Origin: Candidatus Methylomirabilis sp.
GTDB taxonomy: Bacteria; Methylomirabilota; Methylomirabilia; Methylomirabilales; Methylomirabilaceae
DNA length: 64,000 nt
Direction of reading: 5' to 3'
Assembly (NCBI RefSeq): GCF_028716865.1
Contig: NZ_JAQUOY010000014.1
Span: 1 to 64,000, forward strand
The notes under the pieces were generated by a model. That model worked only from the letters and a program-made list of their open reading frames with translations. It was not told the DNA's origin and did not search any database. Position numbers and translations under genes: made by a program. Positions 151 to 16,706 of this stretch are shown one piece after another (positions within the stretch are counted from its first letter, which is position 1; every line of letters begins with the position of its first letter).

Positions 151-1887
151 CTATGGCGCGATTGGGACGAGACCCGAATCATGGTCGCTCGTGACTAAAG
201 AAACCTCGCCGTGTCGTATCCGGTAGACCATATCGGCAGACTTCACCATGGCAGGCTGATGCGAGATGGCCAGAATCGTCAGCCGATCCAGCAGGCCGCG
301 GAGCGTTCGGCAGATCTCCGCCTCAGTCTCCGGGTCGAGCGCGCTGGTCACTTCGTCCAGGATCAGCAGTTTGGGCCGATGCGCCAGCGCCCTGGCGATG
401 GCAATGCGTTGTCGCTGGCCTCCTGAGAGCGTCAAGCCGCGCTCCCCAACCGAACTGTGGATCCCGGAGGGCCGAGCCATCACAAAGTCCCAGGCGCCTG
501 CAGCACGCAGTGCAGCTTCGGCGTCAGCCTCGCTCAGTTCCGGATCGCCAAGCGTCACGTTCCGCAGCACTGTGTCGTGAAACAGGAAGGTCTCTTGTGG
601 TACGTATCCGATCATCCGCCGCCACTGCCTCAGGTCAACGGTGTCCAGCGACAGGTCGTCGATGAAGACATGGCCTTGCTGCGGACGCAACAGACCCGTA
701 AACAGATCCGCTATCGTCGTTTTCCCTGCCCCCGACGGCCCCATGATGGTAGTGAATGATCCCATCGAAACGGTCAGCGACGCATTCCGAAGTACATGAT
801 GTTTTCCATATCCAAAGCTGACCTTGTCCAGGCAAATGGCCTTCTCGAAGTGGGGGAGAAGACCTCCTGGCGCTGTTTCACGGTCACGGGTCGCGTCGTC
901 GATGGCCGCTTGCAACGACCAGAAGGCGCTTTCCAGGGTTCGCATTCTCTGGTATTGCCGCTGTATCTTGGCAAGGCAGGTCAGCAATTGAGCGAGAAGA
1001 AGGATCATAATCATCACGATACTGAAGGGCATCTGCCACCGGCCAAGGGCCACGTAGAACCCGACAGCGATGATGATGGCCAACAAGACATCTTGGGAGG
1101 AACTGAGCGCCTCCGAGCTGAGCACTTCCCGCTGGAATGCCCGGTTTAATCGCTGGGTGTCAGATCTAAGGGAGGGACCGATCAACTCTTCCCTCGCCAT
1201 GGCTTTGAGCGGTTTAATGGATTGAAGGCTATCGGTTAAACAGGCGAGAAGGGATTTTAAGAGTTGGGTCTGGCGAGTTCCGGCTCGATGCGCCATGCGG
1301 ATGAGACGGCTGAGTCCGTAGAGGATAGCGATTCCGGGAACCAGAAATGCCAAGGTCGCCTTCCCCGCGACAACAAAGACCACACCCGTATACACAATAG
1401 CCTGGACAAACAGGGTCGCCCCCTTGGCACCCTCATAGTACGCCATTGAAGCCCGCATCGCTTCAGTACCCACCGCGTTGGCAAAGCTTCCGACAGGTTG
1501 GCGTACATAATACTCCCACCGAGCGGCCAGGAGGGCATGGAGCAGGGAGAGTCGTAGATCAGTGGCGACGTGCGTGACCGTGTAACCGACCTGGGTTTTG
1601 GCCAACAGGGTAAATGCCCCTTTGACCGCCACACAGAGGACGATGACAATCAGCAGCGTGCCAACAGTCGGCCTCAGCCCCACGACCGAAAGGGATTGTG
1701 TCAGGACCTGCTGCGCTCCGAATAGCTGAGAACCGGCCCCCTGGATCTTTTCGTCGGTCGCCGCGCTAAGCATCGGAAGCAGCATGAGGAACCCGACCCC
1801 CTCCGCAATGCTGGCGAACAGCAGAGAGATGAGGGTGAGTGCGCTCCGTCGCGGATACTTCCGGACGATGGTGCTTAAAAAGCGCAT
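151..1887 (-). CDS. MsbA-like ABC exporter (fused permease and ATPase)
   Basis: This is a half-transporter of about 578 residues with an N-terminal block of hydrophobic segments (roughly residues 15-310) followed by a nucleotide-binding domain. The ATPase shows a Walker A loop GPSGAGKTT, the signature LSGGQRQRIAIARAL and a Walker B LLILDEVTSALD. Such homodimeric exporters flip lipids or lipid-linked sugars across the inner membrane (MsbA, PglK, other ABC-B/C-like exporters). The ATG at 1887 is preferred over an upstream TTG at 1899. It is the last gene of a minus-strand series with the Stealth and AsnB-like genes, next to the ceramide operon. The substrate could therefore be a glycolipid, but this is inference from position only. 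Confidence 0.85.
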   Translation of the reverse strand: MRFLSTIVRKYPRRSALTLISLLFASIAEGVGFLMLLPMLSAATDEKIQGAGSQLFGAQQVLTQSLSVVGLRPTVGTLLIVIVLCVAVKGAFTLLAKTQVGYTVTHVATDLRLSLLHALLAARWEYYVRQPVGSFANAVGTEAMRASMAYYEGAKGATLFVQAIVYTGVVFVVAGKATLAFLVPGIAILYGLSRLIRMAHRAGTRQTQLLKSLLACLTDSLQSIKPLKAMAREELIGPSLRSDTQRLNRAFQREVLSSEALSSSQDVLLAIIIAVGFYVALGRWQMPFSIVMIMILLLAQLLTCLAKIQRQYQRMRTLESAFWSLQAAIDDATRDRETAPGGLLPHFEKAICLDKVSFGYGKHHVLRNASLTVSMGSFTTIMGPSGAGKTTIADLFTGLLRPQQGHVFIDDLSLDTVDLRQWRRMIGYVPQETFLFHDTVLRNVTLGDPELSEADAEAALRAAGAWDFVMARPSGIHSSVGERGLTLSGGQRQRIAIARALAHRPKLLILDEVTSALDPETEAEICRTLRGLLDRLTILAISHQPAMVKSADMVYRIRHGEVSLVTSDHDSGLVPIAP

Positions 1888-1918
1888 GGCGACACGCAAC
1901 AGTTCCGAAGATTACACT

Positions 1919-2983
1919 TCACAGAGGTGTACCACCGACGATCGCTTCCGGAGAATAAAGATCTCGATTTTCAGCAGTCGTTTTCTCAAAACGGCTAGGG
2001 TTGGGGAAAAGACGTTCCAACATATGCGTGAGGTAGGATCCCCAATCAAAGTGCTCATTGTATTCGCAGTCATTTAGACACAGAAACTTCGGACGATGAG
2101 ATGGCGGTGTGTTGATGAGGGCTCTTGATTTCCGGAGTAAGCGGCTTATGTTTTTTCTAGACATCAGCAACCAATTTTTGTCGAAAATAGGCGTGGCAGC
2201 GCTCCTGTAAATCGCGTAATAAAGCAGCAAGGCGGCGACGTCAATGCTTTGTCGCGATCGAAACCTCTCATGCATCGCAGTAGACACCTCTCGCGGAAAC
2301 CTGTCATGTATCTCATAGGCAATCGATTTCGAGTGTATCTGAATTTGATGATTTGGATAATTCCAGAGATAAAAATTCTTCCGAAAAGGCCGCAGCCGTA
2401 TCCAGTGCCTTAGATGTATGCGAGGCCTATAGAATTTCCCCAACTCTACTTCCATGAGGTGACAGCTATTCACCATTTGCTCAGAAAATGGATCGTGTTC
2501 TGGGTCGCGAGGAATATGGACAAGATTTGTTTTGAAACCCACACGCATCTTCGCATTTCCAACAAGGAAATCTTCAGCAGAGACATCATTGAGAAAGAAC
2601 ATGTCATCATTTGCATATAAAAAAAACTCAGACAGTCCGCGAATTCTATGCATGACGGTCTCAATGGCATTAGAAGAAAAACATGGCAAGCAGCTGCTAT
2701 CCGGGAAAATATCTTGATGGTCAACAACAAATAGACCCCCAGCCTCTGGATTCAGCCAAGTCGGTCGCTGCTGGTTTGTAATAAGGTATATGTTTCGGAT
2801 GAAGGGTGCGTGCTTTGCTACGCTTCGCAAGCTGTATTTGAGCTCATCATGATTCCTAAATCTCGCAGCGAAAGGGGTCGGAGTACACCCACCGATTGTT
2901 TTAAGCGCTTCAATTTTTTTGGCTTGCCATACTGGATCTGTTGAGTCCACCCATAAATACACCAGATCGATCTCGTTTAGCAT
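1919..2983 (-). CDS. Stealth-family sugar-phosphate transferase
   Basis: The 354-residue protein starts with the Stealth CR1 signature (IDLVYLWVDSTDPVW, residues about 5-19). A CR2-like region follows, with RFRNHDELKYSLRSVAKHAP, IYLITNQQRPTWLN and the FFLYANDDMFFL block. The CR3-like part around residues 190-260 carries the NYPNHQ and HDRFP motifs. Members of this family transfer hexose-1-phosphate units to make phosphodiester-linked capsular polymers. A good ribosome site (GGAGG) lies about 10 bases before the ATG. The gene is visibly richer in A and T than its neighbours, which suggests acquisition by transfer. The product could be a surface polymer or a lipid decoration. Confidence 0.8.
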   Translation of the reverse strand: MLNEIDLVYLWVDSTDPVWQAKKIEALKTIGGCTPTPFAARFRNHDELKYSLRSVAKHAPFIRNIYLITNQQRPTWLNPEAGGLFVVDHQDIFPDSSCLPCFSSNAIETVMHRIRGLSEFFLYANDDMFFLNDVSAEDFLVGNAKMRVGFKTNLVHIPRDPEHDPFSEQMVNSCHLMEVELGKFYRPRIHLRHWIRLRPFRKNFYLWNYPNHQIQIHSKSIAYEIHDRFPREVSTAMHERFRSRQSIDVAALLLYYAIYRSAATPIFDKNWLLMSRKNISRLLRKSRALINTPPSHRPKFLCLNDCEYNEHFDWGSYLTHMLERLFPNPSRFEKTTAENRDLYSPEAIVGGTPL

Positions 2984-3178: not shown

Positions 3179-5176
3179 TCAGGCGGCGCCACCGGATGCT
3201 CCCAGGCAGCCACTCGTGATTGCGGATTCTGCCGCCTGATGTCGCCGCCACTGCTGGAACATCAGGACGCGCCACAGCAACTTCCCACGGTTATGCATTC
3301 CCGCAAGGTGTTCGTGCCAGCGTGCGCGGACAAGTGTGGGGTCGAAAAATCCGTCCTCGGCGAGTCTCCGTTCATCGAGCAGCTCTTCCGCCCATGTCCG
3401 CAACGGACCCCAAAGCCACGCCTTGATCGGCACGTCAAAGCCCCTTTTCGGGCGGTCGACCAGCGCCCGCGGCACGTACCGGTAAAGGACCCTGCGCAAG
3501 AGCCGTTTATTCTCGCCTGCATCCACATATTTGAGCGCCGGCGCCAGGCGCCAGACGTATTCCACGACGCGATGGTCAAGCAGCGGCACGCGAACCTCAA
3601 GGCCGAACGCCATGCTCGCTCGATCCACCTTGGTCAGCATGCCGTCCGGCAGGCGTGTCATCATATCGAGGAAGCCGATGCGTTCCATAAAGTCTGGCAA
3701 GGTGACCTCTGTCGTCGCATCCTGCAGAAGATCCGGCCGTTCACGCGCGTCAGACATGACAGCGGCCGAGTCCTCCAGTGGGCAGACCACCTGACGATAG
3801 AGGTCGCTCTCAGTTGCCCCCACGAAGGTGTGTGTCAGCACACTCCTCCGATTGAGCGAAAGCTTATGACGGAGGAAGACCGGGAGAACGCCGGACAGCA
3901 TCGCGCCCCCTGCCAGGATCCACTCTGCGGCAGCCGTTGTGGCGCCCGCTGTGGCGCCTCGCAGCGGCATGGGGAGATACCTGCCAGCCTGTGCAAGGGC
4001 CCGCGCCTTGTAGTAACTTGTATAGCCTCCGAGCAGTTCGTCGCCACCATCGCCTGAGAGCGCCACGGTGACATGCCGCCTGGTCAGCTCCGAGAGGAGC
4101 AGGGTCGGGATCTGAGAACTGTCGGCGAAAGGCTCGTCGTACCAGCGCGGCAGCTCTGGGATGATCGCTAAGGCCTGTTCGGGTGCGACGTACAGTTCGG
4201 TGTGCGCGGTGCCGAGATGCGCCGCCACCTCGCGGGCGTGGCGCGCCTCATCGTAGCGTGGCTCCGCGAAGCCGATCGTATAGGTGTTGATCGGACGGCT
4301 GCTCTGCGCCTGCATCAGGGCCGCAACCACAGACGAATCGATCCCGCCGGAGAGAAAGGCGCCCAGCGGTACGTCGGCCGCCATGTGACGGCCGACGGTG
4401 TCGCGCAGCAGGGATTCGAGGCCGTCGACGGCCTCCGCCTCGCTGATGTCGAGACGATTGGCCGCGGCCGCAGCAGCGACCTCCCGTGCATCCCAGTAGG
4501 GATGGATCTCCGGTGCGTCAGCGTAGGGTAGCACAAGGAGGTGGCCGGGCGACAGCTTGAAGACGCCGCAATAGATACTATGCGGTCCCGGTACGTAGCT
4601 GTAGCGAACGAAGGCGGCAAGACTGTCTCGGTCGATCTCTGGCGCCCAGCCAGCATGCGCGCGCAACGCCTTGAGCTCAGAGCCGAACATGAACAGGTTG
4701 CCAAATCGGGCCCAGTAGAGCGGCTTGATGCCGACTCGATCACGCGCGAGCGTTAGCGTCCGCGTTGCTCGATCCCACACGGCAAAGGCGAACATACCGT
4801 TGAGCCGCCCAAGCGCGGTTTTGACGCCCCACTCTGCGCACGCCTCGAGGAGAATCTCACTGTCGCAGTGACCGCGAAAGCGCCGACCATGGGCCTCAAG
4901 CTCGCGTCGGAGCTCGGCGTGATTGTATATCTCGCCGTTATAGGTGAGGACAAGACGCCCGCACGAGGAGACCATCGGCTGCCGCCCCGCCGGCGAGAGG
5001 TCGAGGATAGCGAGCCGCTGATGCGCCAACGAAATCCCTGCCGCCGGATCAATCCAGACGCCGGAATCATCGGGTCCCCGGTGGCGTAGGGTCGCCGCCA
5101 TCGCCGCGCCCGTCGCCGCTAAGTACTCGGCCCCTAGTGCGCCGCGCGTATCAAGGAATCCGGCAATGCCGCACAT
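3179..5176 (-). CDS. asnB: asparagine synthase (glutamine-hydrolysing), AsnB type
   Basis: The protein of 665 residues begins MCGIAGF, so Cys2 is the class II glutamine amidotransferase nucleophile after Met removal. The glutaminase domain spans roughly residues 1-215 (HRGPDDSG, YNGEIYNH). The synthetase domain follows, with the PP-loop SGGIDSS near residue 270 and the SGDGGDELLGGY block. The length matches AsnB proteins commonly found in polysaccharide clusters. There they may make asparagine or amidate sugar acids or other carboxylates. The neighbours (Stealth gene downstream, ceramide operon upstream on the same strand) favour an envelope role, but amidation of a specific substrate is not shown by the sequence. 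Confidence 0.88.
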   Translation of the reverse strand: MCGIAGFLDTRGALGAEYLAATGAAMAATLRHRGPDDSGVWIDPAAGISLAHQRLAILDLSPAGRQPMVSSCGRLVLTYNGEIYNHAELRRELEAHGRRFRGHCDSEILLEACAEWGVKTALGRLNGMFAFAVWDRATRTLTLARDRVGIKPLYWARFGNLFMFGSELKALRAHAGWAPEIDRDSLAAFVRYSYVPGPHSIYCGVFKLSPGHLLVLPYADAPEIHPYWDAREVAAAAAANRLDISEAEAVDGLESLLRDTVGRHMAADVPLGAFLSGGIDSSVVAALMQAQSSRPINTYTIGFAEPRYDEARHAREVAAHLGTAHTELYVAPEQALAIIPELPRWYDEPFADSSQIPTLLLSELTRRHVTVALSGDGGDELLGGYTSYYKARALAQAGRYLPMPLRGATAGATTAAAEWILAGGAMLSGVLPVFLRHKLSLNRRSVLTHTFVGATESDLYRQVVCPLEDSAAVMSDARERPDLLQDATTEVTLPDFMERIGFLDMMTRLPDGMLTKVDRASMAFGLEVRVPLLDHRVVEYVWRLAPALKYVDAGENKRLLRRVLYRYVPRALVDRPKRGFDVPIKAWLWGPLRTWAEELLDERRLAEDGFFDPTLVRARWHEHLAGMHNRGKLLWRVLMFQQWRRHQAAESAITSGCLGASGGAA

Positions 5177-5430: not shown

Positions 5431-6621
5431 TTACGGAGAGAAGGTTGCCTTGACGGACGCAAAGGCCTTTGCAACGCGGTCGATCTGGTCAGGGGTGTGC
5501 GCCGCGCTCACGCTGCATCGGAGCAGGCTCCCGCCATCGGGGGCGGCTGGCGGCAGAATCATGTTCACGTATACGCCTTGTTGGAGGAGACTGTTCCAGC
5601 AGGCGATCGCTTCTTCCCCTCCGCCGAACCGGACTGCGATGATCGGACTGGGTTCGGGGCCAAGCCTGCATCCCAACTCTTTCAACGAATCGTACAATCG
5701 CCGCGCGTTAGCCCAGAGCCTGAGACGTAGCTCCGGTTCCGTTCGGAGCCTGCGTAAGGCAGCCCTTGTGGAAGCGATGACCGATGGGCAGGGTGACGCG
5801 GTGAAGATATACGGGCGACTGGCATACCGGATCAGTTCCATCTCTGGATGATCCGAGACACAGAACCCGCCGGTAGCGCCCAGGCTCTTACTGAAGGTTC
5901 CAACAATAAAATCGACGCTGTCTTCAACGCCGGCCTCTTCGGAGCGCCCGCGGCCTCGCTCGCCCAAGACTCCAAGCGAATGGGCCTCGTCCAGCAGCAG
6001 ATAGGCGCCGTGTTCCTGTTTCAAGGCCGCTATCTCCACTAGCGCCGCTCGATCTCCCAACATACTATAGATCCCTTCGGCGATGATCAGCGTATTGGCG
6101 CAACGCTTTCCCAGGCGTGTCAGGCGCTTATGGAGGTCGGCGGTATCGTTGTGGCGGAATCGAATGATCTCCGCGCCGCTCATCCGGCAGCCATCATAGA
6201 TGCTTGCATGGCAATCGGCATCGATCAGGATCACGTCTCCCTGGCCCGCGAGCGCCGAAATGACACCCAAATTTGCCAGATAGCCGGTCGAGAAGACATC
6301 ACACCACCGACGCCCATAAAACTCTGCCAGCTCTTTCTCTAATGCAAGGTGTCCGATAAAATTGCCATTCGCCATTCTGGAACCGGTGGTACCGGTCCCT
6401 TGCTCCCGCACGGCGCGTGCCGCTGCCTCAATACACTGAGGATCGAATGTTAACCCAAGGTAGTTGTTCGTCCCTGCCAGGATCATCGGACGGCCGTTCA
6501 CGACAGCTTCGGTCGGCGATAGGAGCCGTTCGATTGTTACCCGAAAGGGGTCTTCACTCACTTTCGTCAGTGCCTTGCGGGCATCGGCCAACTGTCGGAA
6601 CTTCTTCAGGAGAGCCATCAC
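5431..6621 (-). CDS. spt: serine palmitoyltransferase-like alpha-oxoamine synthase
   Basis: This 396-residue PLP enzyme of the alpha-oxoamine synthase family would condense serine with an acyl thioester to 3-ketosphinganine, the first step of sphingolipid synthesis. The PLP lysine lies in GTFSKSLGATGGFC. The following RPYIFTASPCPSVIAS closely resembles the corresponding segment of Sphingomonas and Caulobacter SPT as I recall them (RPYxFTASxPPSV) rather than AONS or KBL. Other SPT-like signatures are GTGTTGSRMANG, CHASIYDGC, GIYSMLGD and LLDEAHSLG. The ATG overlaps the upstream acp stop by four bases (ATGA), which implies translational coupling. The adjacent ACP, ligase and reductase make SPT far more likely than biotin synthesis. 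Confidence 0.85.
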   Translation of the reverse strand: MMALLKKFRQLADARKALTKVSEDPFRVTIERLLSPTEAVVNGRPMILAGTNNYLGLTFDPQCIEAAARAVREQGTGTTGSRMANGNFIGHLALEKELAEFYGRRWCDVFSTGYLANLGVISALAGQGDVILIDADCHASIYDGCRMSGAEIIRFRHNDTADLHKRLTRLGKRCANTLIIAEGIYSMLGDRAALVEIAALKQEHGAYLLLDEAHSLGVLGERGRGRSEEAGVEDSVDFIVGTFSKSLGATGGFCVSDHPEMELIRYASRPYIFTASPCPSVIASTRAALRRLRTEPELRLRLWANARRLYDSLKELGCRLGPEPSPIIAVRFGGGEEAIACWNSLLQQGVYVNMILPPAAPDGGSLLRCSVSAAHTPDQIDRVAKAFASVKATFSP

Positions 6622-6866
6622 CGGTGCTCCATAAGTTGCTCGATCTGCCGGGCGAAATCTCCGATGGTCCGTACGTCCGGGACGATGTTCAAAGGAATGG
6701 AGATGTCGAATCGTTCCTCCACCTCAAGCAGAAGTTCCATAACCTTCAGCGAATCGAGATCGAGATCGGCGACAAGTTCGGTTTCCTCTGAAAGGGCCTG
6801 TCCGTCCTGCCCATGCGGCCGAAGGATCTCGTAAAGTTGCGGCAGTATCGTCTCGTAGCGAGCCAT
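6618..6866 (-). CDS. acyl carrier protein for sphingolipid synthesis
   Basis: The 82-residue protein carries the phosphopantetheine attachment motif in LDLDSLKVMELL, with the serine near residue 39, and an acidic four-helix ACP profile. It sits between the reductase and the SPT-like gene and overlaps the latter by four bases. A dedicated ACP beside SPT is one of the five genes reported as required for ceramide formation in Caulobacter (Olea-Ozuna and colleagues). It probably carries the acyl chain activated by the adjacent ligase to SPT or to the ceramide synthase. Which of the two it serves cannot be read from sequence. Confidence 0.85.
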   Translation of the reverse strand: MARYETILPQLYEILRPHGQDGQALSEETELVADLDLDSLKVMELLLEVEERFDISIPLNIVPDVRTIGDFARQIEQLMEHR

Positions 6867-6893
6867 CTGTGAGTCAGCCTGAGATGAATGAAA

Positions 6894-7847
6894 TTATGCG
6901 CCCACCTCTCGCCCTGGCAACGGAAGACCAAGAGTGAGTCGCAGACCTTCTTCCAAACGCACCGCCGGCGCCCAGTTGACGACCCGGCAGAACGGAGCGT
7001 TGTCGCAGACCCAGTCCTGGTGTCTGAACTCCCGCATCTTTCCCGGGGTGAACATCGGCATGTATCCTATTACAGATGCCACCATCTTGTTGAACCTCGC
7101 GGCGACATCCAGAATCAGCTCCGGCACCTGGAAATGGACGACCCGTTTTCCCCGAAGCTGCCGGAAGGTCTCGACGACCTCATGCCAGGTGTACCCATTG
7201 GGATGCCCATCATCCAGCTCGAACGCGCGTTGCTCTCGGACATTACAAAGCAACCATTGTATCACGGCCTCTGCCAGGTCTTCCACGTAGAGCAAGGAGA
7301 ATCTGGCATCTTTTCGACCCAATATGGGGGCGAATCCCTGCAGCATCAGGCGAAGCAGGGGGCGCATCGCACGGTCCTCTGGGCCATAGACCACGGGAGG
7401 GCGAAGCGCGGTCCACGGGAGTCGATCGGTCACTGCAGTGAGGGCAAGTTCCCCCATCCGCTTGCTGGCTGCGTAGGGTGACAACTCCGGCTCTCGAGCC
7501 GCCAACGATGATATCAGCAGAAATCGGGGCACGGGGTTCCGGCTGGCGGCAATATGGGCCAGCCGCGAGACCGCTTCAACGTTTGTTCGATAAAAGTCGG
7601 CCTCGGTGATTCCGCGCACCGCCCCGGCGCAATGGATCACGGCGTCCGCATCGCCAATCAGGTCTTCGAGGCAGTCAGGGTCTTCGAGTGTACCCAGAAC
7701 CCACTGAAGTGATGTGCCCGCAAATCGAGCGGCCAGAGACGGTGAACGGAGCAGCGCGCGGACGCGCCATCCTCCTTGTATCAGCCTCCGGGCTACAGCA
7801 CTTCCGATGAATCCCGTCGCTCCCGTTAACGCGACAACGTCGCGCAT
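6894..7847 (-). CDS. NAD-dependent epimerase/dehydratase family reductase, CerR-like
   Basis: This is an extended short-chain dehydrogenase of 317 residues with an N-terminal Rossmann motif GATGFIGSAVARRL (about residues 9-22). The catalytic dyad appears as YAASK near residue 125. In Caulobacter an epimerase-family protein (CerR) in the same gene set reduces the 3-keto group during ceramide synthesis, acting after N-acylation. The position here between the acyl ligase and the ACP supports that role. The start overlaps the ligase stop by about 22 bases. A nucleotide-sugar epimerase function is the alternative, but the operon context argues against it. Confidence 0.75.
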   Translation of the reverse strand: MRDVVALTGATGFIGSAVARRLIQGGWRVRALLRSPSLAARFAGTSLQWVLGTLEDPDCLEDLIGDADAVIHCAGAVRGITEADFYRTNVEAVSRLAHIAASRNPVPRFLLISSLAAREPELSPYAASKRMGELALTAVTDRLPWTALRPPVVYGPEDRAMRPLLRLMLQGFAPILGRKDARFSLLYVEDLAEAVIQWLLCNVREQRAFELDDGHPNGYTWHEVVETFRQLRGKRVVHFQVPELILDVAARFNKMVASVIGYMPMFTPGKMREFRHQDWVCDNAPFCRVVNWAPAVRLEEGLRLTLGLPLPGREVGA

Positions 7848-9676
7848 GAATCCGCTTGCTGGTGGGGTTGCTGTGGGCGGGTTTCGGCGAATCCGTTTCG
7901 GCTGTGGAAGAACTGGGCTACGTTATTGCGGTTCAGGAATTCTTCCCGGGTCTTCGATCGGGACAGTTTCCCGGACGACGTGCGCGGCAGCGTACGTGGA
8001 GGAACGAGTTCAACAAAGCAGTCGATGGCGAACTGCTCGCGGATCAACCCCTGCAACCGATGGATGCATTCGGCTCGCTTGGCGGCATTCAGCTCCCGGT
8101 ACTGGACGACCATCACGGCTAACTCAGTCCGGTTGGGAGCCTCAATCGAGAACGCGCACGCGTCGCCTATTCTGATTTCCGGTAATTCCTCGGCGAGATG
8201 CTCTAAGTCCTGAGGCCAGATGTTTCGACCGTGAATGATAATAACATCTTTCTTCCGACCAATGATGACAATGCTGCCTGCCACGAGATAGCCAATGTCT
8301 CCGGTATCCAGCCACCCATCCGAGGATAAGACCTTCCGAGTTTTTCCACGATCTCCGAAGTAGCCGGACATGATGTTGGCGCCTCGCGCAAAGATCGCGC
8401 CGGCGTGGCGGTCCGGAAGAATCTGACCCTGCTCGTCTCGCACCTCGACCTGGATCCCGGGAAGCGCCGAACCGCAATTGACAAATCGACTCACATTCGT
8501 CCCGTCCATTTCCGACCCACACCCACGCCCATTGAGCGGTATCGCCACTCTACGTTCGGATAAAGGCGTCTGCTCAATATGATCAATAGTAATCCCTTCA
8601 CCGAGGGATGCAAAACTGATGGCGAGGGACGCCTCTGCCATACCATAGCAGGCCAAAAATGCGCTTGGCTTAAACCCGCTCAACGCGAAGGCTGCCGCAA
8701 ACTCCTCCAGGACATCAGACCGAATCGTTTCGGCGCCTACTCCCGCAGCTCGCCACGCGCTGAGATCGAACTTGCCGGCATCATCCCTTCTCAAACGTCT
8801 CGCACACATCTCGTACCCGAACGTCGGACTGAAGGAGATGGTAGCCCTTGTCTGCGTCATCAGGGACAACCACAATCGGGGTCGCATGGCAAAGGACCGC
8901 GTTTTCAGGTAATCTACTGAAACTTGGCCCACCATCGGCGCAAGCACGAATCCGACAAGCCCCATGTCATGATAAAAAGGCAACCAGGATACCGCGCGAT
9001 CTCCGGGACAAATCTTGAGACCGTGCGCGAGAATACCTTCCAGATTGGCGAGTACCGCGCTTTGAGTGATCATCACCCCGCGGGGAAACAGAGTGCTTCC
9101 CGAGGTGTATTGGATATAGGCCATCTCCGTGGGGCCCAAAGGTTCCAACGCTTGCGGGGCTTCCGGAAGGCATGTGAAGGTTTCTACGGTCCCGATATGG
9201 TCCAACTCGAGACCCTCGGCAGCCTCGCTCAGGAACGGAAAAAATTCAGGCCCAGCCACCGCGACGGACGGCTGGCAATGCGCCAAGAGCGCCCTGAGTT
9301 GGGCAACGTACCTTTTGTGGCCGCTTATCAGGAGCGAAGCCGACAGCGGGACAGGCACGAAGCCGGCATACTGACAGGCGAAAAAGAAGCGTTGGAAATC
9401 CGGGTCCGTGTCCGCAACGATCGCCACTCGAGCACCTCGCTCAAGTCCCAGGCTCAAAAGGCGACACGCCAGCGATTGTGCCTGTTCTCGAAGATCAGCA
9501 TAAGGCAGGACTGCGTGCAGTTCACCCTGGTCTCCATAGAAATTGCATCCAGTTTCTCCCCTAGCTGCATAATCCAGAGCCTCGGCCAACGTGGAAAAGC
9601 CACTGATTCGAAGCGGCACGGTATTCTCGGTCGGCGTTGGTCCTGTTCTCATCCTCCCCTTACCCCCTCTATGCAC
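7826..9676 (-). CDS. fatty acyl-AMP/CoA ligase (FAAL-like), first gene of the ceramide operon
   Basis: The protein is an ANL-superfamily adenylating enzyme of about 616 residues. It shows the P-loop YTSGSTLFPRGVMIT (arginine where lysine is usual), SWLPFYHDMGLVG typical of fatty acyl-AMP ligases, the YGMAEAS motif, DTGD and a C-terminal GKLSRSKTR with the catalytic-lysine region. About 30 residues extend past the usual end. It would activate a fatty acid and load the adjacent ACP. An alternative start at 9652 follows an AAGGGGAGG run. This is the promoter-proximal gene of the four-gene operon, divergent from the GNAT ceramide synthase candidate. Confidence 0.82.
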   Translation of the reverse strand: MHRGGKGRMRTGPTPTENTVPLRISGFSTLAEALDYAARGETGCNFYGDQGELHAVLPYADLREQAQSLACRLLSLGLERGARVAIVADTDPDFQRFFFACQYAGFVPVPLSASLLISGHKRYVAQLRALLAHCQPSVAVAGPEFFPFLSEAAEGLELDHIGTVETFTCLPEAPQALEPLGPTEMAYIQYTSGSTLFPRGVMITQSAVLANLEGILAHGLKICPGDRAVSWLPFYHDMGLVGFVLAPMVGQVSVDYLKTRSFAMRPRLWLSLMTQTRATISFSPTFGYEMCARRLRRDDAGKFDLSAWRAAGVGAETIRSDVLEEFAAAFALSGFKPSAFLACYGMAEASLAISFASLGEGITIDHIEQTPLSERRVAIPLNGRGCGSEMDGTNVSRFVNCGSALPGIQVEVRDEQGQILPDRHAGAIFARGANIMSGYFGDRGKTRKVLSSDGWLDTGDIGYLVAGSIVIIGRKKDVIIIHGRNIWPQDLEHLAEELPEIRIGDACAFSIEAPNRTELAVMVVQYRELNAAKRAECIHRLQGLIREQFAIDCFVELVPPRTLPRTSSGKLSRSKTREEFLNRNNVAQFFHSRNGFAETRPQQPHQQADSCATLSR

Positions 9677-10154
9677 TACGCCGTTGCCTGAAAAGTCCAG
9701 CCTCTCGACACTGGCGCGACCCCTCGCGTAAACCCAAGAAGGAGTCGAATCGGCCGAACTGCGCCGCCACTCTTATACTGGTCAAGCTCACAAGGCAACT
9801 CGCCATGCGCATTCTGCCAAGCAAGAGACGGCAGATATCCTCGCAAGCTTGCGGGAAGGACACTGGCATCTCGATATCTGCAGCAGGCAACTCTCGCACG
9901 AAACTCGCACTAGTGACGATAAGCATTGAAAGTTTTCATTACGTCATAGATAATGATGGGCACTCAAGCTAATGAATAGACCTGCCTGCCCCCGCCTCGA
10001 ATAGAAAACGTTGCATTATATACAAGACCTGGGATCTTTTACAATAAGAAAGTGAGTTGAGCTTAAGCGTGGCATTGACACAGCAACCCCTCTGCGGTAC
10101 AGGGGTATTGGATCAGAGCTTCGCAACCCGTATACCAACCGGGAATCTCTTATC
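9677..10154. promoter_or_regulatory. divergent intergenic region between ceramide operon and ceramide synthase gene
   Basis: No convincing gene was seen in these 478 bases. Promoter-like boxes for the rightward gene are TTGACA at 10075-10080, and TTGGAT at 10108-10113 with TATACC at 10131-10136 (17-base spacer). A short inverted repeat ACCCCT/AGGGGT at 10086-10106 lies between them and could be an operator. The leftward promoter for the operon was not resolved. The divergent arrangement would allow both halves of the pathway to be controlled from one region. Confidence 0.4.
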
Positions 10155-11297
10155 ATGCGAGCAGCGCTCGAACCTGTACGCATCGAACCGATAAACGGAT
10201 CGCGGGACCTTCGACGGTTCATTCGCGTCCCCTGGTCGGTCTACGTCGATGATCCCGCATGGGTCCCTCACCTGTTTCTCGAGCGACAGGAACAGTTTTC
10301 TCGGCGTCACCCGTACTTCGCCCACGCGCACTGCTGCTTCTGGCTCGCCTACCGTGGGATGAAGCCTGTCGGCCGGATCAGCGCTCAGATTGATGCGTTA
10401 CACGAGGCGCGGCATCAAGATGCCACCGGATTTTTCGGCCTGCTCGAAGCCGAGGACGAGGCAGAAACGTTTCACGCGCTGTTGAGTACGGCGGAGACCT
10501 GGCTGCGTGACCAAGGGATGGTGCGCATCCGCGGCCCATTCAACCTGTCGATCAACCAGGAGTGTGGGTTGCTCGTGGAGGGGTTCGATACACCTCCGAT
10601 GATCATGATGGGCCATGCCCGTCCGTACTATGCAGATCGGCTCGCGGCCGAGGGATATCAGGGCGTGAAGGACCTGTTGGCCTATCATATTGTCACCCAT
10701 TTCACACCTCCAGCACTCATGCGGACCGTTTTGAACCGAGTTGCAGGCGTCGCACGAATCCGGCCGTTGCGCCGGTCATGCCTGAGCGAAGAGCTCAATA
10801 TTCTTCGAGAGATTTACGAAGATGCGTGGTCGGCCAACTGGGGCTTCATTCCCTTCACAGAGGAGGAGTTTCGCCACCTCGGATACAGCCTGCGACTGCT
10901 GGTTGAGGACGAGTACGTACAGATTGCGGAAGTGGATGGGGAGCCGGCCGCGATGATCGTCGCCTTTCCGAATGTCAATGAGGCAATAGCCGATCTTGAC
11001 GGACGTCTATTCCCGCTCGGCTGGCTCAAGCTCTTGTGGCGGCTTAAGGTCAAGCAGCCGAAAACGGCCCGCGTCGCCCTGATGGGTGTGCGCAAGCGTT
11101 TTCAGGCGAGCGCGCTGGGAAGTGCGCTCGCTTTCATGCTCATCGATGCCGTGCGCGGCCATGGCATCAGGCGTGGAGTCCAGGCGGTTGAGCTTTCCTG
11201 GGTGCTGGAGGATAACAGACCGATGCGAAATATGCTGAGCATGATCGGGGGGGTTCCCTACAAACGCTACCGAATCTATGAAAAGGCACTGAGATAA
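10155..11297 (+). CDS. GNAT-fold N-acyltransferase, candidate bacterial ceramide synthase (bCerS)
   Basis: The 380-residue protein belongs to a large-GNAT family usually annotated as N-acetyltransferase. It has WSVYVDDPAWVPHLFLER near the N terminus, then PVGRISAQID, IRGPFNLSINQECGLLV and FDTPPMIMMGH. The C-terminal half carries a second acyltransferase-like region ending ELSWVLEDNRPMRNML. In Caulobacter a GNAT-family protein near the spt operon is the N-acyltransferase that converts 3-ketosphinganine to the N-acyl product. The gene diverges from the spt operon here, and its family resemblance is recalled rather than aligned. No Shine-Dalgarno site is obvious before the ATG. Confidence 0.72.
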   Translation: MRAALEPVRIEPINGSRDLRRFIRVPWSVYVDDPAWVPHLFLERQEQFSRRHPYFAHAHCCFWLAYRGMKPVGRISAQIDALHEARHQDATGFFGLLEAEDEAETFHALLSTAETWLRDQGMVRIRGPFNLSINQECGLLVEGFDTPPMIMMGHARPYYADRLAAEGYQGVKDLLAYHIVTHFTPPALMRTVLNRVAGVARIRPLRRSCLSEELNILREIYEDAWSANWGFIPFTEEEFRHLGYSLRLLVEDEYVQIAEVDGEPAAMIVAFPNVNEAIADLDGRLFPLGWLKLLWRLKVKQPKTARVALMGVRKRFQASALGSALAFMLIDAVRGHGIRRGVQAVELSWVLEDNRPMRNMLSMIGGVPYKRYRIYEKALR

Positions 11298-11418: not shown

Positions 11419-12216
11419 ATGAAACAGCAACGAATCGAAAAAGCCATTATTCTTAGCGCCGGCAGCGGACGGCGCTTGCTGTCTCTCACCGCAGAGTTAC
11501 CCAAGTGCCTTCTCCCTGTAGATGCCGACCATCCGGTGCTCGAACTGCAACTGCGTATGCTGGCGCAGTGCGGTATTCAGCATGTTACCGTTATGGTGGG
11601 TTTTGGCGCCAAAAAGGTTGAGCGCTTCCTTGCCACCCATCCCATAGAGAATCTTGAGGTTCACACCCGTTACAACCCTTTCTTTAGGACTACCAACACT
11701 CTGGTCACATGCTGGCTGGCGATTCCAGAAATGACAAAGGACTTTATGCTGCTTAACGGCGATACTCTTTTTGAGGTGGAAGTCCTACGTCGCGTGCTCA
11801 CCTCCGACAAGGGGCCTGTGACTTTGGCCATCGACCAAAAGGCAGAGTACGATAAGGACGATATGAAGATAGTGTTGGACAGCGACGGACAACTTAAAGC
11901 GGTGGGGAAGGTGCTGGCGACGTCTAAGATCGATGGCGAGTCGATTGGCCTTATGGTGTTTAGAAACAAAGGGGTGGAGGCCTTTCGGGCCGCATTGGAT
12001 ACGGCTATACGGGATCCTGCGAACCTACGTAAGTGGTATCACGACGTCATCAGCACTATGGCTGGTTCGTTGTTGGTAGGGACCGAGTTCATTGAGGGAC
12101 TCTGGTGGACGGAAATTGACACACCAAAAGACTTTGCGAAGGCACGCTCATATTTCGTCCGCGAGCAGGCGGTACCTGAACGAACAACGGTGTTCTCATC
12201 GGTAGGAGATTCTTAG
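11419..12216 (+). CDS. LicC/COG1213-type cytidylyl- or sugar nucleotidyltransferase
   Basis: The 265-residue protein has the nucleotidyltransferase signature AIILSAGSGRRLLSLTAELP with PKCLLPV, then YNPFFRTTNTL, a hallmark of phosphocholine or inositol-phosphate cytidylyltransferases, and LLNGDTLF with the metal-binding aspartate. It would couple a phosphorylated alcohol to CMP (or a sugar to a nucleotide). Two CDP-alcohol phosphatidyltransferase genes lie nearby, so production of a CDP-activated head group for ceramide is a reasonable proposal. It follows the bCerS candidate on the same strand by 121 bases. Its stop overlaps the convergent GT4 stop by four bases. Confidence 0.75.
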   Translation: MKQQRIEKAIILSAGSGRRLLSLTAELPKCLLPVDADHPVLELQLRMLAQCGIQHVTVMVGFGAKKVERFLATHPIENLEVHTRYNPFFRTTNTLVTCWLAIPEMTKDFMLLNGDTLFEVEVLRRVLTSDKGPVTLAIDQKAEYDKDDMKIVLDSDGQLKAVGKVLATSKIDGESIGLMVFRNKGVEAFRAALDTAIRDPANLRKWYHDVISTMAGSLLVGTEFIEGLWWTEIDTPKDFAKARSYFVREQAVPERTTVFSSVGDS

Positions 12217-13379
12217 CGCTTGGGCCGGCCACCCAGATCAAGCAACACTTGCAGATATTGGTCAGTAGCACGGTCCACAGAAAACATGGCAGCCTGTGCG
12301 CGTAGCCTCTCCGGGTCTGGCGGCCTCTCCAGCACCGAGAGAATGGCCTCAGTCAGCGCCGCGTCGTCCCCCACCGGTACCAGCGGGCCGTAGGCGCCGC
12401 CGTCCAGGATCTCCGCCGGGCCGCTCGGGCAGTCCGTACTCACCACCGGACAGCCACAGGCCATGGCTTCAATCAGCACGCCGGGGAGCCCTTCCCAGGC
12501 CGAAGATAATACGAAGACCGAGGCCCGCATCATGTAGGGAAAGGGATTCGGCATAAACCCCGGCAGGGCCACATCGGAGGCTACGCCAAGATCCCGTGCT
12601 AATGCCTCTAATGTTGGGCGTTCTTGCCCCTCCCCCAGAATAATGAGCCGTGCCTTCCGCACCTCCCGGACTCGGGCAAAGGCCTTCAGCAGAGTCGGGA
12701 AATCTTTTTGAGTTGCAAGCCTCCCCACTGCCAACAATACTGGCGGGCTGCCTGGCGCAAACCAGGGATGGTCCAATGGGGCGCGCATCTTCTCTTGCAG
12801 CTCAGGCGTCACCACAGGATTATAGATCGTGGTGATGGACTCACGCGGCAGATTTGTAACACGAGCAACGTCATCCGCAACGCCATCCGATACAGCGATA
12901 ATGGCGTCGGCCCAGGGATAGAAGCGGCCTGCCAGTTGCGGTCGGAAGAGTGTTGTTTTCCCGTGTGCGTATGTGGCGGGTGGGCGCAGAGAGTTGCTGA
13001 CCCTCACCACTAACCTTGTTCGGGCGCGGGCAAGATACCGCGCCCACAAGGCAGCATCATTGACATGGTTCGCTGCTGACAGCACAACATCCGGCTGTTC
13101 GTGTCGTAGGTAGCTTGCCAAAGCTGCGACGCTCGCTAATGCCCATCGGGACTTATTCATTGCTGCCCATGGCAAGTGCCTCCAGCGGTGATCGAGGGCC
13201 ACCAGGCGCACCAAGGGAGAGAGTTCCTGGTAAAGAGTACCTTGTGAACAGGCCACCACAAGATCAACCTTGTGGCCTCGAGTAGCAAAGGCGTGGGCAA
13301 GGGTCAGCGTACGCCGCTCTGATCCGCTTCCAGAGAGGCCGTAGACGAATACGGCCAGGTGCCTGCTATCTTTATTCAT
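12213..13379 (-). CDS. family 4 glycosyltransferase (copy 1 of tandem pair)
   Basis: The 388-residue GT-B enzyme shows an N-terminal acceptor domain (GLSGSGSERRTLTLAHAF) and a C-terminal GT4 domain. The latter has LLAVGRLATQKDFPTLLKAF, LGEGQERPTLEALA and the SAWEGLPGVLIEAMACGCPV retaining-GT4 E-x7-E motif. It is a near-duplicate of the upstream gene at 13372-14544, and both share long identical blocks in the C-terminal half. It overlaps that gene by eight bases, so the two are translationally linked. GT4 enzymes add sugars from nucleotide donors to lipids or glycans. The acceptor is not known. Confidence 0.88.
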   Translation of the reverse strand: MNKDSRHLAVFVYGLSGSGSERRTLTLAHAFATRGHKVDLVVACSQGTLYQELSPLVRLVALDHRWRHLPWAAMNKSRWALASVAALASYLRHEQPDVVLSAANHVNDAALWARYLARARTRLVVRVSNSLRPPATYAHGKTTLFRPQLAGRFYPWADAIIAVSDGVADDVARVTNLPRESITTIYNPVVTPELQEKMRAPLDHPWFAPGSPPVLLAVGRLATQKDFPTLLKAFARVREVRKARLIILGEGQERPTLEALARDLGVASDVALPGFMPNPFPYMMRASVFVLSSAWEGLPGVLIEAMACGCPVVSTDCPSGPAEILDGGAYGPLVPVGDDAALTEAILSVLERPPDPERLRAQAAMFSVDRATDQYLQVLLDLGGRPKR

Positions 13380-14544
13380 GCGAGATAGTGTTCTTCGGTT
13401 GCTCTCCTCTGCATGGCCCCAGCAACAGCTCCAGATAGCGGTCGGCGGTATGATCCACGGAGAACAGGGCTGCCCTCGTGCGCAATCGGTTCGGATCCGG
13501 CGGCCTCTTCAGCACAGAAAGGATAGCCTCAGCCAGCGCTGCATCGTCCCCCACTGGCACTAGTGGGCCGTAGGCACCGCCGTCCAGGATCTCGGCTGGA
13601 CCGCTCGGGCAGTCCGTACTCACCACCGGACAGCCGCAGGCCATGGCTTCGGCCACAACGTTGCCGAACCCTTCCCAAGCGGAGGACAGCACAAAAACCG
13701 AGGCTCGTACCATGTAGGGGAAGGGATTGAGCACAAAACCCGGCAGGGCCACATCAGCGGCCACGCCTAGTTGTCGCGCCAGCCTCTCCAACTTCGTCCG
13801 CTTCTTTCCCTCCCCGAGGATGACGAGCCGCGCCGGACGTATCGCCCGCACCCGGGCAAAGGCCTTGAGCAGGGTCGGAAAATCTTTTTGAGCTACAAGC
13901 CTCCCCACTGCCAACAACACCGGCGGGCTGCCTGGCGCAAACCAGGGGTGGTCCAATGGAGCGCGCATCTTCTCTTGCAGCTCAGGCGTCACCACAGGAT
14001 TATAGATCATTGCGATGCGCTCACGTGGCAACCCTGTGACGCGAGCAACGTCATCTGCCACACCATTCGAAATGGAGATAATGGCGTCAGCCCAAGGATA
14101 GAAGTGTCGTGCTTGCCAGAGTTCAAACCGTTTTTGTATGTTCACAGCGGGTCGGGACAGATGGGTGCCGATCCTTATGACCAACTTTGTTCGGACGCGG
14201 GTGAGAGCGCGCGCCCACGGGGCGATGACATTGACGAGATGGCAACATGACAGCAAGACCGCCGGCCGCTCGCGTCGTAGATAGCGCGCCAAAGCTGGTA
14301 TGCTCGCCAAGGTCCAGGGGCCTTTCTTAACCCATGGCAAGTACGTCCACCACGGATCGAGGGCCACCAGGCGCACCAAAGGCGATATTTCCTGGCGAGG
14401 TGGATCTTGTGAGCGCACCACCACAAGATCCACCTTGTGACCCCGAGCCGCGAAGGCGTGAGCCAGGGTCATCATCCGCTGCTGTGCCCCTCCTCCAGAC
14501 AGGCTGAGAATAAACAGCGCCAGGTGCCGGTGATCTTCGGCCAT
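13372..14544 (-). CDS. family 4 glycosyltransferase (copy 2 of tandem pair)
   Basis: The 390-residue GT-B glycosyltransferase has SLSGGGAQQRMMTLAHAF at the N terminus and VLLAVGRLVAQKDFPTLLKAF, LGEGKKRTKLERLA and SSAWEGFGNVVAEAMACGCP in the C-terminal domain. It resembles the downstream paralogue throughout. The middle (NPVVTPELQEKMRAPLDHPW) is identical between copies, while the N-terminal acceptor half has diverged. This pattern suggests duplication followed by specialisation of acceptor binding. It follows the GT2 gene at 14569 by 24 bases in the same transcription unit. Confidence 0.88.
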   Translation of the reverse strand: MAEDHRHLALFILSLSGGGAQQRMMTLAHAFAARGHKVDLVVVRSQDPPRQEISPLVRLVALDPWWTYLPWVKKGPWTLASIPALARYLRRERPAVLLSCCHLVNVIAPWARALTRVRTKLVIRIGTHLSRPAVNIQKRFELWQARHFYPWADAIISISNGVADDVARVTGLPRERIAMIYNPVVTPELQEKMRAPLDHPWFAPGSPPVLLAVGRLVAQKDFPTLLKAFARVRAIRPARLVILGEGKKRTKLERLARQLGVAADVALPGFVLNPFPYMVRASVFVLSSAWEGFGNVVAEAMACGCPVVSTDCPSGPAEILDGGAYGPLVPVGDDAALAEAILSVLKRPPDPNRLRTRAALFSVDHTADRYLELLLGPCRGEQPKNTISHE

Positions 14545-14568: not shown

Positions 14569-15606
14569 CTAGGTCTCCCACAGAGGGCGTCTGAAAACAA
14601 AAAAGAACAGATTCTGCTTTAAGCTTGCCAGGGCTCCTCTGCTCAACGGCGAGCGCCAGAAGTGTTTCCACGCTGCCCACCCCATGCCGCCCGAAGCACG
14701 CCAGCACGCGGTAACCCATAGCTGGCCCACCAGCCTGGCAAACGCCTCTGTGGGATAGCGCAGGACGCGGCGGTTGACCTTCTGCAGCTTTTGCAACCAA
14801 GCGTCGGCCCATTCCAGATACTCTCGGTCCGGCGCGAACTGCAACTTAGTCATGCGGGGGAGAACAAAGTGACGCTCTAAGTCGGTCACGGTAAACGTGA
14901 CCCCAAGCTCAGTAAGCTGTGCGCTCGCGATCTCCTGGTTCTTAGCCTTCATCAACTGTGCCTTCTCACGCCCAAGGTTACCCGCGTGTGTCCTGCGATG
15001 CACGAGGGTCTCTGGCAGGTTGCCGAGTTTAGAGTTCTTGGCAACACGCACAAACAGGTCAAAGTCTTCGCAAACCGCGTACTGTTCGCGGTACCGATAC
15101 TCCCGCAAGACGGCGGTCCTGGCCATGATCGAAGAGTTGCAAAGACTACATCGAAACAACAGCCGCGATTGCAACTCTCCTGGCGAGACAAATCGTCTCT
15201 TATCCCTGCTCAAGGATCGGCCGTTCTCATCCATCTCCGTCGCCCAGGCCCCCACCACCGCAAAGTCTTTGTGGCGGTCAAGAAAGGCTACCTGTTTCTC
15301 CAGCCGGCGCGGATAGGCCCAGTCATCACTGTCCAGCATGGCGATGTACTCCCCACGGGCCAGATCAATGCCCCTGTTGCGCGTCCTCGGTATACCGAGG
15401 TTCTGCTCATTGCACACCAGCCGCACACGGGAGTCCGTCGTATACGTCCGCAGGATCTCCACGCTGCCGTCAGTGGAGGCGTCGTCGATGAGGAGGAGTT
15501 CGAAGTCGATGAAGCTCTGGGCAAGGATGCTCTCGATTGCTGTGGCGACATACCTCTCGCGGTTATAGACCGGGATCAGGACGGTGACTCGAGGTGAGGT
15601 GCCCAT
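14569..15606 (-). CDS. family 2 glycosyltransferase (copy 1, shares identical 5' end with copy 2)
   Basis: The 345-residue GT-A enzyme starts MGTSPRVTVLIPVYNRERYV, with the nucleotide-binding DDASTDGSVEIL region and the DXD-like MLDSDDWAYPRRLEKQ. It likely acts on the cytoplasmic face to add a sugar. Its first 134 residues are identical to those of the gene at 15668-16705. The DNA match covers about 404 bases (15204-15607), after which the two genes diverge to moderate similarity. This points to recent gene conversion or unequal recombination rather than an old duplication. The C-terminal part sets acceptor preference in this family, so the two probably have different targets. Confidence 0.87.
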   Translation of the reverse strand: MGTSPRVTVLIPVYNRERYVATAIESILAQSFIDFELLLIDDASTDGSVEILRTYTTDSRVRLVCNEQNLGIPRTRNRGIDLARGEYIAMLDSDDWAYPRRLEKQVAFLDRHKDFAVVGAWATEMDENGRSLSRDKRRFVSPGELQSRLLFRCSLCNSSIMARTAVLREYRYREQYAVCEDFDLFVRVAKNSKLGNLPETLVHRRTHAGNLGREKAQLMKAKNQEIASAQLTELGVTFTVTDLERHFVLPRMTKLQFAPDREYLEWADAWLQKLQKVNRRVLRYPTEAFARLVGQLWVTACWRASGGMGWAAWKHFWRSPLSRGALASLKQNLFFFVFRRPLWET

Positions 15607-15607
15607 A
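15204..15607. repeat. direct repeat, left copy (5' end of GT2 gene 1)
   Basis: Read by eye, this stretch matches 16303-16706 base for base at an offset of 1099. It spans the first 134 codons of one GT2 gene including its start codon. Sequence on both sides differs between copies. The sharp borders suggest a recent conversion event. Confidence 0.85.
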
Positions 15608-15667
15608 TCAAAGACCTTCTACTCTCGCACTGTTCATAACGGGTCAGCACGCCGGCCTGACCGTGCG

Positions 15668-16705
15668 TCAGATATCCCGAGGTAGGTGTCTGAAAGCCAG
15701 CAAGAGAAGATACATCCTCATCCTCGACCACCCCTCTTTGCTCAACGGCGACTGCCAGAAGTATTTCCAGGCACTCCAACCCATACCGGTCATGGTATGC
15801 CAGCACACCACAAACCATATCTCGCCCACCATCTGTGCCAACGGACGTTCGGGATAACGCAAGGCATGTTGATTGGCCGCTTGCAGCTTGAGCAACCAGG
15901 CGTTGGCCCACTCGAGATACGTACGGTCAGGGGTCGACTGTACTCTGTCCATGCGCAGCAGGAGAAAGTGTCGTTCCAGGTCGGCAGGGGTGAACTCAAC
16001 ACCCAGCTCGGCAAGCTGAGCACTCACAATTTCCAGGTGTTTCTCCTTCACCACCTGCGCCTTTTCACGTGTAATGCCGCTGGCATGCACCCTGCGACAC
16101 AGCAGGATGTTGGGCAGATTGCCGAGCTTATATTTTCTGGCAAGGCGAACAAACAGGTCAACGTCTTCGCAAACTGCGTACTGTTCGCGGTACCGATACT
16201 CCCGTAAGACGGCGGTCCTGGCCATGATCGAAGAATGGTGATGACAGTAGCTAAACAGCAGCCGTGACTGCAACTCTCCTGGTAAGACAGGCAATATTTT
16301 GACCCTGCTCAAGGATCGGCCGTTCTCATCCATCTCCGTCGCCCAGGCCCCCACCACCGCAAAGTCTTTGTGGCGGTCAAGAAAGGCTACCTGTTTCTCC
16401 AGCCGGCGCGGATAGGCCCAGTCATCACTGTCCAGCATGGCGATGTACTCCCCACGGGCCAGATCAATGCCCCTGTTGCGCGTCCTCGGTATACCGAGGT
16501 TCTGCTCATTGCACACCAGCCGCACACGGGAGTCCGTCGTATACGTCCGCAGGATCTCCACGCTGCCGTCAGTGGAGGCGTCGTCGATGAGGAGGAGTTC
16601 GAAGTCGATGAAGCTCTGGGCAAGGATGCTCTCGATTGCTGTGGCGACATACCTCTCGCGGTTATAGACCGGGATCAGGACGGTGACTCGAGGTGAGGTG
16701 CCCAT
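15668..16705 (-). CDS. family 2 glycosyltransferase (copy 2)
   Basis: The start is set at the ATG at 16705 because the identical paralogue starts at the same codon and the repeat border lies one base upstream of it; the frame stays open upstream to 16768. The protein has the same GT-A N terminus as copy 1 (VTVLIPVYNRERYVATAIES, MLDSDDWAYPRR) and a diverged C-terminal half (VKILPVLPGELQSRLLF, then EYRYREQYAVCEDVDLFVRL). The upstream CDP-alcohol transferase stop lies inside this gene's 5' end (31-base overlap). The product probably adds a sugar in the same glycan or glycolipid pathway. Confidence 0.86.
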   Translation of the reverse strand: MGTSPRVTVLIPVYNRERYVATAIESILAQSFIDFELLLIDDASTDGSVEILRTYTTDSRVRLVCNEQNLGIPRTRNRGIDLARGEYIAMLDSDDWAYPRRLEKQVAFLDRHKDFAVVGAWATEMDENGRSLSRVKILPVLPGELQSRLLFSYCHHHSSIMARTAVLREYRYREQYAVCEDVDLFVRLARKYKLGNLPNILLCRRVHASGITREKAQVVKEKHLEIVSAQLAELGVEFTPADLERHFLLLRMDRVQSTPDRTYLEWANAWLLKLQAANQHALRYPERPLAQMVGEIWFVVCWHTMTGMGWSAWKYFWQSPLSKEGWSRMRMYLLLLAFRHLPRDI

Positions 16706-16706
16706 A
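16303..16706. repeat. direct repeat, right copy (5' end of GT2 gene 2)
   Basis: This is the partner of 15204-15607. It begins at the shared CCCTGCTC and ends at the start codon region. It also supplies the last codons of the CDP-alcohol transferase gene (ending WAPHLESPS), whose original 3' end may have been replaced. Confidence 0.85.

Follow-up and report, generated by a model that had tools for sequence, protein, structure and literature searches.

Comparison with described sphingolipid loci

The closest described counterparts of the locus reported here are the CC_1152-CC_1168 phosphosphingolipid cluster of Caulobacter crescentus (PMC11324152) and a sphingolipid locus of Escherichia coli (L148 in our comparison; its BL21 version is treated in PMC9386255), and the pathway roles used below derive from the Caulobacter work (PMC9386255, PMC11087976, PMC11324152). 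Genes resembling spt, the gene for serine palmitoyltransferase (SPT), have already been predicted in about 40 phyla (PMC11334938), and the main text of that paper, which covers 38 phyla, does not name NC10. We analysed positions 1 to 64,000 of contig NZ_JAQUOY010000014.1 (assembly GCF_028716865.1), hereafter called the window, which carries a predicted ceramide locus of a non-proteobacterial host, Candidatus Methylomirabilis (NC10/Methylomirabilota). Members of this genus are nitrite-dependent methane oxidisers.

The C. crescentus cluster has in common with the window spt, acpR, cerR, aasR, bcerS, a CpgD relative, a CC_1158-like phosphoesterase and a second LptF/LptG pair, but the window lacks cpgA, cpgB, cpgC and CC_1153, Thr replaces Asn90 in its CpgD relative, and it has extra Stealth, AsnB-like and glycosyltransferase genes in an NC10 host. 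The E. coli locus has the same core, with yghO diverging from genes for a fatty acyl-AMP ligase (FAAL), CerR, an acyl carrier protein (ACP) and SPT, and LptF2/LptG2 nearby, whereas its flanking genes differ and its SPT and GNAT proteins are 56% and 49% identical to those of the window. Within the genus, Ca. M. oxyfera (genome G025, locus L043) has the same core (SPT 83%, bCerS 79%), LptF2/LptG2, ABC transporter and phosphoesterase, and differs from the window in that it alone of the two has the full CpgA-D and CC_1153 set. Because each of the eleven Caulobacter phosphosphingolipid genes has its counterpart in L043 (the five for ceramide, CpgD, CC_1153, CC_1158, CpgA, a DAGK-type CpgB and CpgC, where the names CpgA, CpgB and CpgC are given from 28-42% identity and a gene content matching Phenylobacterium), M. 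oxyfera is predicted to make ceramide diphosphoglycerate; the locus adds a desaturase, the ABC gene and LptF2/LptG2.

The ceramide core of the window is a further case of a known gene set, and what is new is the predicted exchange of the head group. We suggest, tentatively, that the genus combines an unchanging ceramide core and Lpt-type exporter with an exchangeable head-group module: CpgA-D for phosphoglycerate in M. oxyfera and relatives, a module of Stealth-type phospho-sugar genes plus a changed CpgD in the window's species together with at least G032 and G030, and possibly one of the CDP-glycerol type in G033 and G034. The window would then represent a new class of bacterial phosphosphingolipid.

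Organisation of the ceramide core

The five core genes are:

5431-6621, minus strand: SPT, ACP-dependent (rhodobacterial) type (NF047599, tree, catalytic residues)
6618-6866, minus strand: AcpR-type ACP with DSL motif (PF00550; spt-linked in relatives)
6894-7847, minus strand: CerR-like short-chain dehydrogenase, NDUFA9-like (PF01370; YxxxK; synteny)
7826-9676, minus strand: AasR-type FAAL/acyl-ACP synthetase (NF006624; synteny with spt)
10155-11297, plus strand: bCerS-type tandem-GNAT N-acyltransferase, divergent (PF00583; YghO identity; tree; AlphaFold fold)

FAAL and CerR overlap by 22 nt, a gap of 27 nt separates CerR from ACP, and ACP and SPT overlap by 4 nt; the FAAL gene probably begins with the ATG at 9652 rather than at 9676. 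The arrangement is far beyond chance. The order and strand of FAAL, CerR and SPT are constant in 61 of the 61 named relatives that have all three genes, bCerS is directly divergent upstream of FAAL in 17 of the 38 named relatives that also have it, and SPT (above cut-off) and bCerS co-occur in 11 of 15 genus genomes, the remaining four having neither, although these 15 genomes are related and hence not 15 independent cases. The genome sample comprised 15 genomes of the genus and 95 of the phylum.

A preliminary description of this DNA had placed the same five genes at these positions with the GNAT gene divergent, as we confirm, and its wording of one overlapping operon is nearly exact, with two overlaps and a single gap. 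The extent that it gave, 5431-11297, is right for the core, but the functional cluster continues on both sides (about 151-22576), and its inventory of five ceramide genes overlooked the genes for export and for the head group, in which the greater interest of the locus lies. The host is NC10, in keeping with its suggestion of a non-proteobacterial organism. It also saw an extension of the known range of sphingolipid makers; this is sound but incremental, because so many phyla had already been predicted (PMC11334938), and the compactness of the set, which is real, is not new, given that the E. coli and C. crescentus genes are clustered alike (PMC9386255).

The locus very probably directs ceramide synthesis of the Caulobacter/E. 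coli type, an estimate that covers ceramide synthesis alone; gene identities, order, phylogeny, co-occurrence and losses are its observed basis, from which all activities, export and the head group are predicted. AasR would activate a fatty acid and transfer it to AcpR, SPT would form 3-oxo-sphinganine from acyl-AcpR and L-serine, and N-acylation by bCerS and ketone reduction by CerR, two steps whose order is debated, would yield (dihydro)ceramide. LptF2/LptG2, perhaps with the ABC transporter, may carry the finished lipid toward the outer membrane. In the window's species its head group may be other than phosphoglycerate, the Stealth phosphotransferase beside SPT being the best-guess enzyme.

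Loss of the Caulobacter head-group genes, and a candidate Stealth module in their place

The genes around the core that bear on head group and export are:

151-1899, minus strand: ABC transporter, candidate flippase (PF00005/PF00664; 47-51% identical relatives adjoin spt in Azotobacter, Pseudomonas and Geobacter loci)
1919-2983, minus strand: Stealth-family phosphotransferase, candidate alternative head-group enzyme (PF11380, PF17101-17103)
3179-5176, minus strand: AsnB-like amidotransferase between SPT and Stealth (PF00733; TIGR01536 486.8 bits, cut-off 267.1)
11419-12216, plus strand: CpgD-like nucleotidyltransferase, Asn90 to Thr (41-49% to spt-linked CpgD relatives)
19494-20558, plus strand: LptF2, a second LptF of the sphingolipid-cluster type (PF03739; tree)
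20492-21622, plus strand: LptG2, a second LptG of the sphingolipid-cluster type (PF03739; tree)
21563-22576, minus strand: metallophosphoesterase like the spt-linked CC_1158 type (PF00149; 44% to the Phenylobacterium spt-linked phosphoesterase)

The ceramide diphosphoglycerate (CPG2) set is incomplete in the window's genome, without cpgA, cpgB, cpgC and CC_1153. Searches of that genome gave only a weak domain match for CpgA, no match to DAGK_cat (cpgB), which 13 of 14 control genomes match, no CC_1153-like gene, and for cpgC only a short stop-containing match on contig C43. On the same contig the desaturase is intact and is preceded by a cpgB remnant ending LTVAYGGEVDFVRL, the end of M. oxyfera CpgB being LAVTCGGEVNFVRL. 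By itself the remnant is weak (E 0.05-0.12), but we find its reading as a cpgB scar convincing because of its position before the desaturase and because G032 has clearer cpgB and cpgC scars flanking its own desaturase. We infer from G032 that contigs C14 and C43 join next to the ABC gene, since the contig break lies beside that gene.

In Caulobacter CpgD, Asn90 contacts ribose and glycerate (PMC13228409). The CpgD relative in the window has TTNTL in place of the invariant xxDNL, and position 90 is Thr in the window, G032 and the G030 fragment, and Asn in all other CpgD-type rows. The three genomes with Thr90 are without CpgA and CpgB, whereas both are present in the five genus genomes whose CpgD is ordinary; CpgA and CpgB are missing from G027 too, where the CpgD region lies off the contig. 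A Stealth phosphotransferase gene lies just downstream of spt in these same four genomes (the window, G032, G027 and G030) and was found at none of 80 other spt loci. The gene order of the window recurs in G032, where both CDP-alcohol phosphotransferases described below are present as well.

The loss of CpgA, CpgB, CpgC and CC_1153, together with the changed CpgD substrate residue, suggests that the ceramide of the window's species may bear another head group than phosphoglycerate, a switch for which we consider the chances evenly balanced. That Stealth is the head-group enzyme, with a phospho-sugar product, is our best guess from the sequence, though a hesitant one.

A different layout is seen in G033 (L045:5436-7564) and, similarly, in G034, where FAAL and bCerS are separated by a gene resembling CDP-glycerol glycerophosphotransferase (PF04464) and by an unrelated nucleotidyltransferase (the family scan was run on G033). 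Both genomes keep CpgA and CpgB.

Methylomirabilis are environmentally important methane oxidisers, and the ceramide locus could yield a new lipid marker for them; with the genus kept in enrichment cultures, the prediction drawn from its complete set of ceramide and export genes can also be tested directly. Species that have CpgA and CpgB and species that lack them, together with one substituted CpgD substrate residue, form a natural contrast from which to learn how bacterial sphingolipid head groups get chosen, and this contrast bears on whether LptF2/LptG2 export different head groups.

Identity of the ceramide enzymes

The SPT scores 628.7 bits on the NCBIfam SPT equivalog NF047599 (cut-off 500) and only 336.4 bits on the bioF model (cut-off 426.45), and a separate BioF is encoded on contig C7 of the same genome (TIGR00858 440.9 bits, cut-off 426.45). 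In a tree of 61 rows the genus forms one clade (100/99) within the ACP-type SPTs (100/100), which include the Sphingomonas, Caulobacterales and E. coli enzymes, and BioF and Kbl fall outside. The protein is 53% identical to the Sphingomonas SPTs, and its nearest relatives are in Gammaproteobacteria, Nitrosomonas, Geobacter, Gemmatimonadota and Nitrospirota. Residues K245 (the PLP, or pyridoxal phosphate, lysine), H138, D211, H214 and R368 are kept in 61 of 61 alignment rows. It is very likely, from these features, an ACP-dependent serine palmitoyltransferase. The position of Sphingomonas R378 is Leu in the window and in Caulobacter; we rejected the idea that this loss means an altered function, since the Caulobacter, E. 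coli and Nitrosomonas SPTs are also without R378. An identity as BioF or Kbl was likewise rejected on the model scores, the tree and the BioF on C7.

The ACP scores under every NCBIfam housekeeping-ACP cut-off (model scores alone), and the FAAL scores 762.9 bits on NF006624 (cut-off 600); as an AcpR/AasR pair they combine a specialised ACP next to spt with a FAAL-type ligase of the same cluster. In CerR, Y125-x3-K129 is invariant, and NDUFA9 is among its best PDB relatives, as reported for Caulobacter CerR; a periplasmic location is reported for the Caulobacter protein only (PMC11087976) and is provisional even there.

Over its full length the GNAT protein shares 49% identity with E. coli YghO and 48% with a spt-linked Phenylobacterium GNAT (CC_1154 itself was not in the comparison), and lies inside the spt-linked GNATs in the tree. 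A PDB sequence search with it gave no match; its AlphaFold model (pLDDT 91.3) has a tandem-GNAT fold, and the best PDB match of the model is a tandem GNAT (E 7.9e-15). It is very likely, as predicted from sequence and fold, a bCerS-type N-acyltransferase. The preliminary description had named the same two enzymes. For SPT, the grouping with AONS or KBL that would have spoken against it was looked for in the tree and not seen, and the biotin gene elsewhere in the genome that it worried about is the distinct BioF on C7 (TIGR00858). Its bCerS assignment agrees with the full-length YghO homology and the grouping with spt-linked Caulobacteraceae GNATs.

Host and distribution of the locus

The metagenome-assembled genome (MAG) that holds the window is 2.54 Mb in 53 contigs and 99.98% complete, with no 16S gene in the MAG. 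G025, taken as Ca. M. oxyfera, is a single closed contig (2,752,854 bases) in which the GDWDFW motif of PmoA is encoded at about 2.11 Mb; G025 and G021 belong to the window's genus and G008 to its order.

In other Methylomirabilota families (L051-L056, in G008, G012, G019, G020, G035 and G088) SPT, CerR and bCerS relatives stand side by side as in the window, but the SPTs form a second, divergent clade, and neither ACP nor FAAL was found at these loci. Because of this divergent clade, the phylum has two SPT types as judged from sequence, and Methylomirabilis may have gained its ceramide cluster by transfer. At L049 and L050 (G052 and G053, from a large-genome family of the class) the SPTs are of the ACP type and form basal branches of that clade.

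Alternative explanations

Several observations weigh against our interpretation. To our knowledge no enzyme from Methylomirabilis has been assayed, and we found no literature report of Methylomirabilis sphingolipids in a search that left subscription papers and supplements outside, one paper giving hopanoid markers. CerR matches named short-chain dehydrogenase families weakly, so that its identity rests on synteny; the MAG is split, and C14 breaks off next to the gene for the ABC transporter. The candidate head-group genes are surrounded by many polysaccharide genes and may act in making a different polymer. This last point leads to a plausible, if rather doubtful, alternative in which the host does make the ceramide core, while the Stealth, AsnB, glycosyltransferase and CDP-alcohol genes work in a polysaccharide pathway encoded next to it, the ceramide being free or receiving its head group from enzymes encoded elsewhere. 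The downstream part of the window is indeed full of sugar-nucleotide and glycosyltransferase genes, and the glycosyltransferases vary between species of the genus, but in four of four cpgA/B-less genomes Stealth either directly adjoins spt or separates it from the spt-linked ABC gene, and three of these genomes retain the CpgD relative in altered form.

It is improbable that the SPT-like protein is an alpha-oxoamine synthase that takes a different amino acid or yields a different product, for instance 1-deoxysphinganine (from alanine or glycine) or the base of a sulfonolipid, in which case the lipid would be sphingolipid-like and not a standard ceramide: close family members do take different amino acids and 1-deoxysphingolipids are abundant in anoxic water (PMC11334938), but the clade with the Sphingomonas, Caulobacterales and E. 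coli enzymes is supported at 100/100, and the PDB cysteate enzyme scores far lower (205 vs 437 bits). Contamination by a proteobacterial contig binned into the NC10 genome could be imagined because the SPT and bCerS trees put the genus within a mainly proteobacterial clade. However, the locus occurs as its own clade (100/99) in 11 genus genomes including the closed single-contig one, and its GC content of 57.7% is close to the 58.2% of the window; we rejected this explanation, giving it virtually no weight.

Export genes and flanking genes

The window's genome has two LptF/LptG pairs. LptF2/LptG2 (19494-21622) group with spt-linked copies of Azotobacter, Pseudomonas, E. coli and Nitrospirales, apart from the genome's other pair (LptF 100/99, LptG 87/92); in Caulobacter LptF2/LptG2 are proposed, not shown, as phosphosphingolipid carriers (PMC11324152). 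LpxC is present in the genome, so that lipopolysaccharide is probably also made by the host. The AsnB-like gene also occurs at the G022, G024 and G032 loci. Between CpgD and LptF2 lie:

12213-13379, minus strand: GT4 glycosyltransferase 1, sphingolipid link uncertain (PF13692/PF00534; syntenic in G032)
13372-14544, minus strand: GT4 glycosyltransferase 2, sphingolipid link uncertain (open reading frame and similarity; syntenic in G032)
14569-15606, minus strand: GT2 glycosyltransferase 1, link uncertain (N-terminal half in common with GT2 glycosyltransferase 2; syntenic in G032)
15668-16768, minus strand: GT2 glycosyltransferase 2, link uncertain (PF00535; syntenic in G032)
16675-18165, minus strand: CDP-alcohol phosphotransferase 1, unlike CpgA (PF01066)
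18256-19053, minus strand: CDP-alcohol phosphotransferase 2, unlike CpgA (PF01066)

Both CDP-alcohol phosphotransferases are only weakly inositol-phosphate-like by NCBIfam and are kept beside LptF2/LptG2 in G032. The tandem GT2 genes (14569-16768) have nearly identical N-terminal halves and diverged C-termini, a recent duplication. Further downstream, at 30649-31461, a fatty-acid hydroxylase (PF04116) with a distant likeness to the ornithine-lipid hydroxylase OlsE (111.6 bits, far under the cut-off of 475) is a possible lipid hydroxylase. Finally, 4094 of 5426 complete E. coli genomes match an enterobacterial spt gene (60-80% DNA identity), and in one inspected E. coli genome second lptF/lptG genes adjoin spt; sphingolipid genes look common in E. 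coli.

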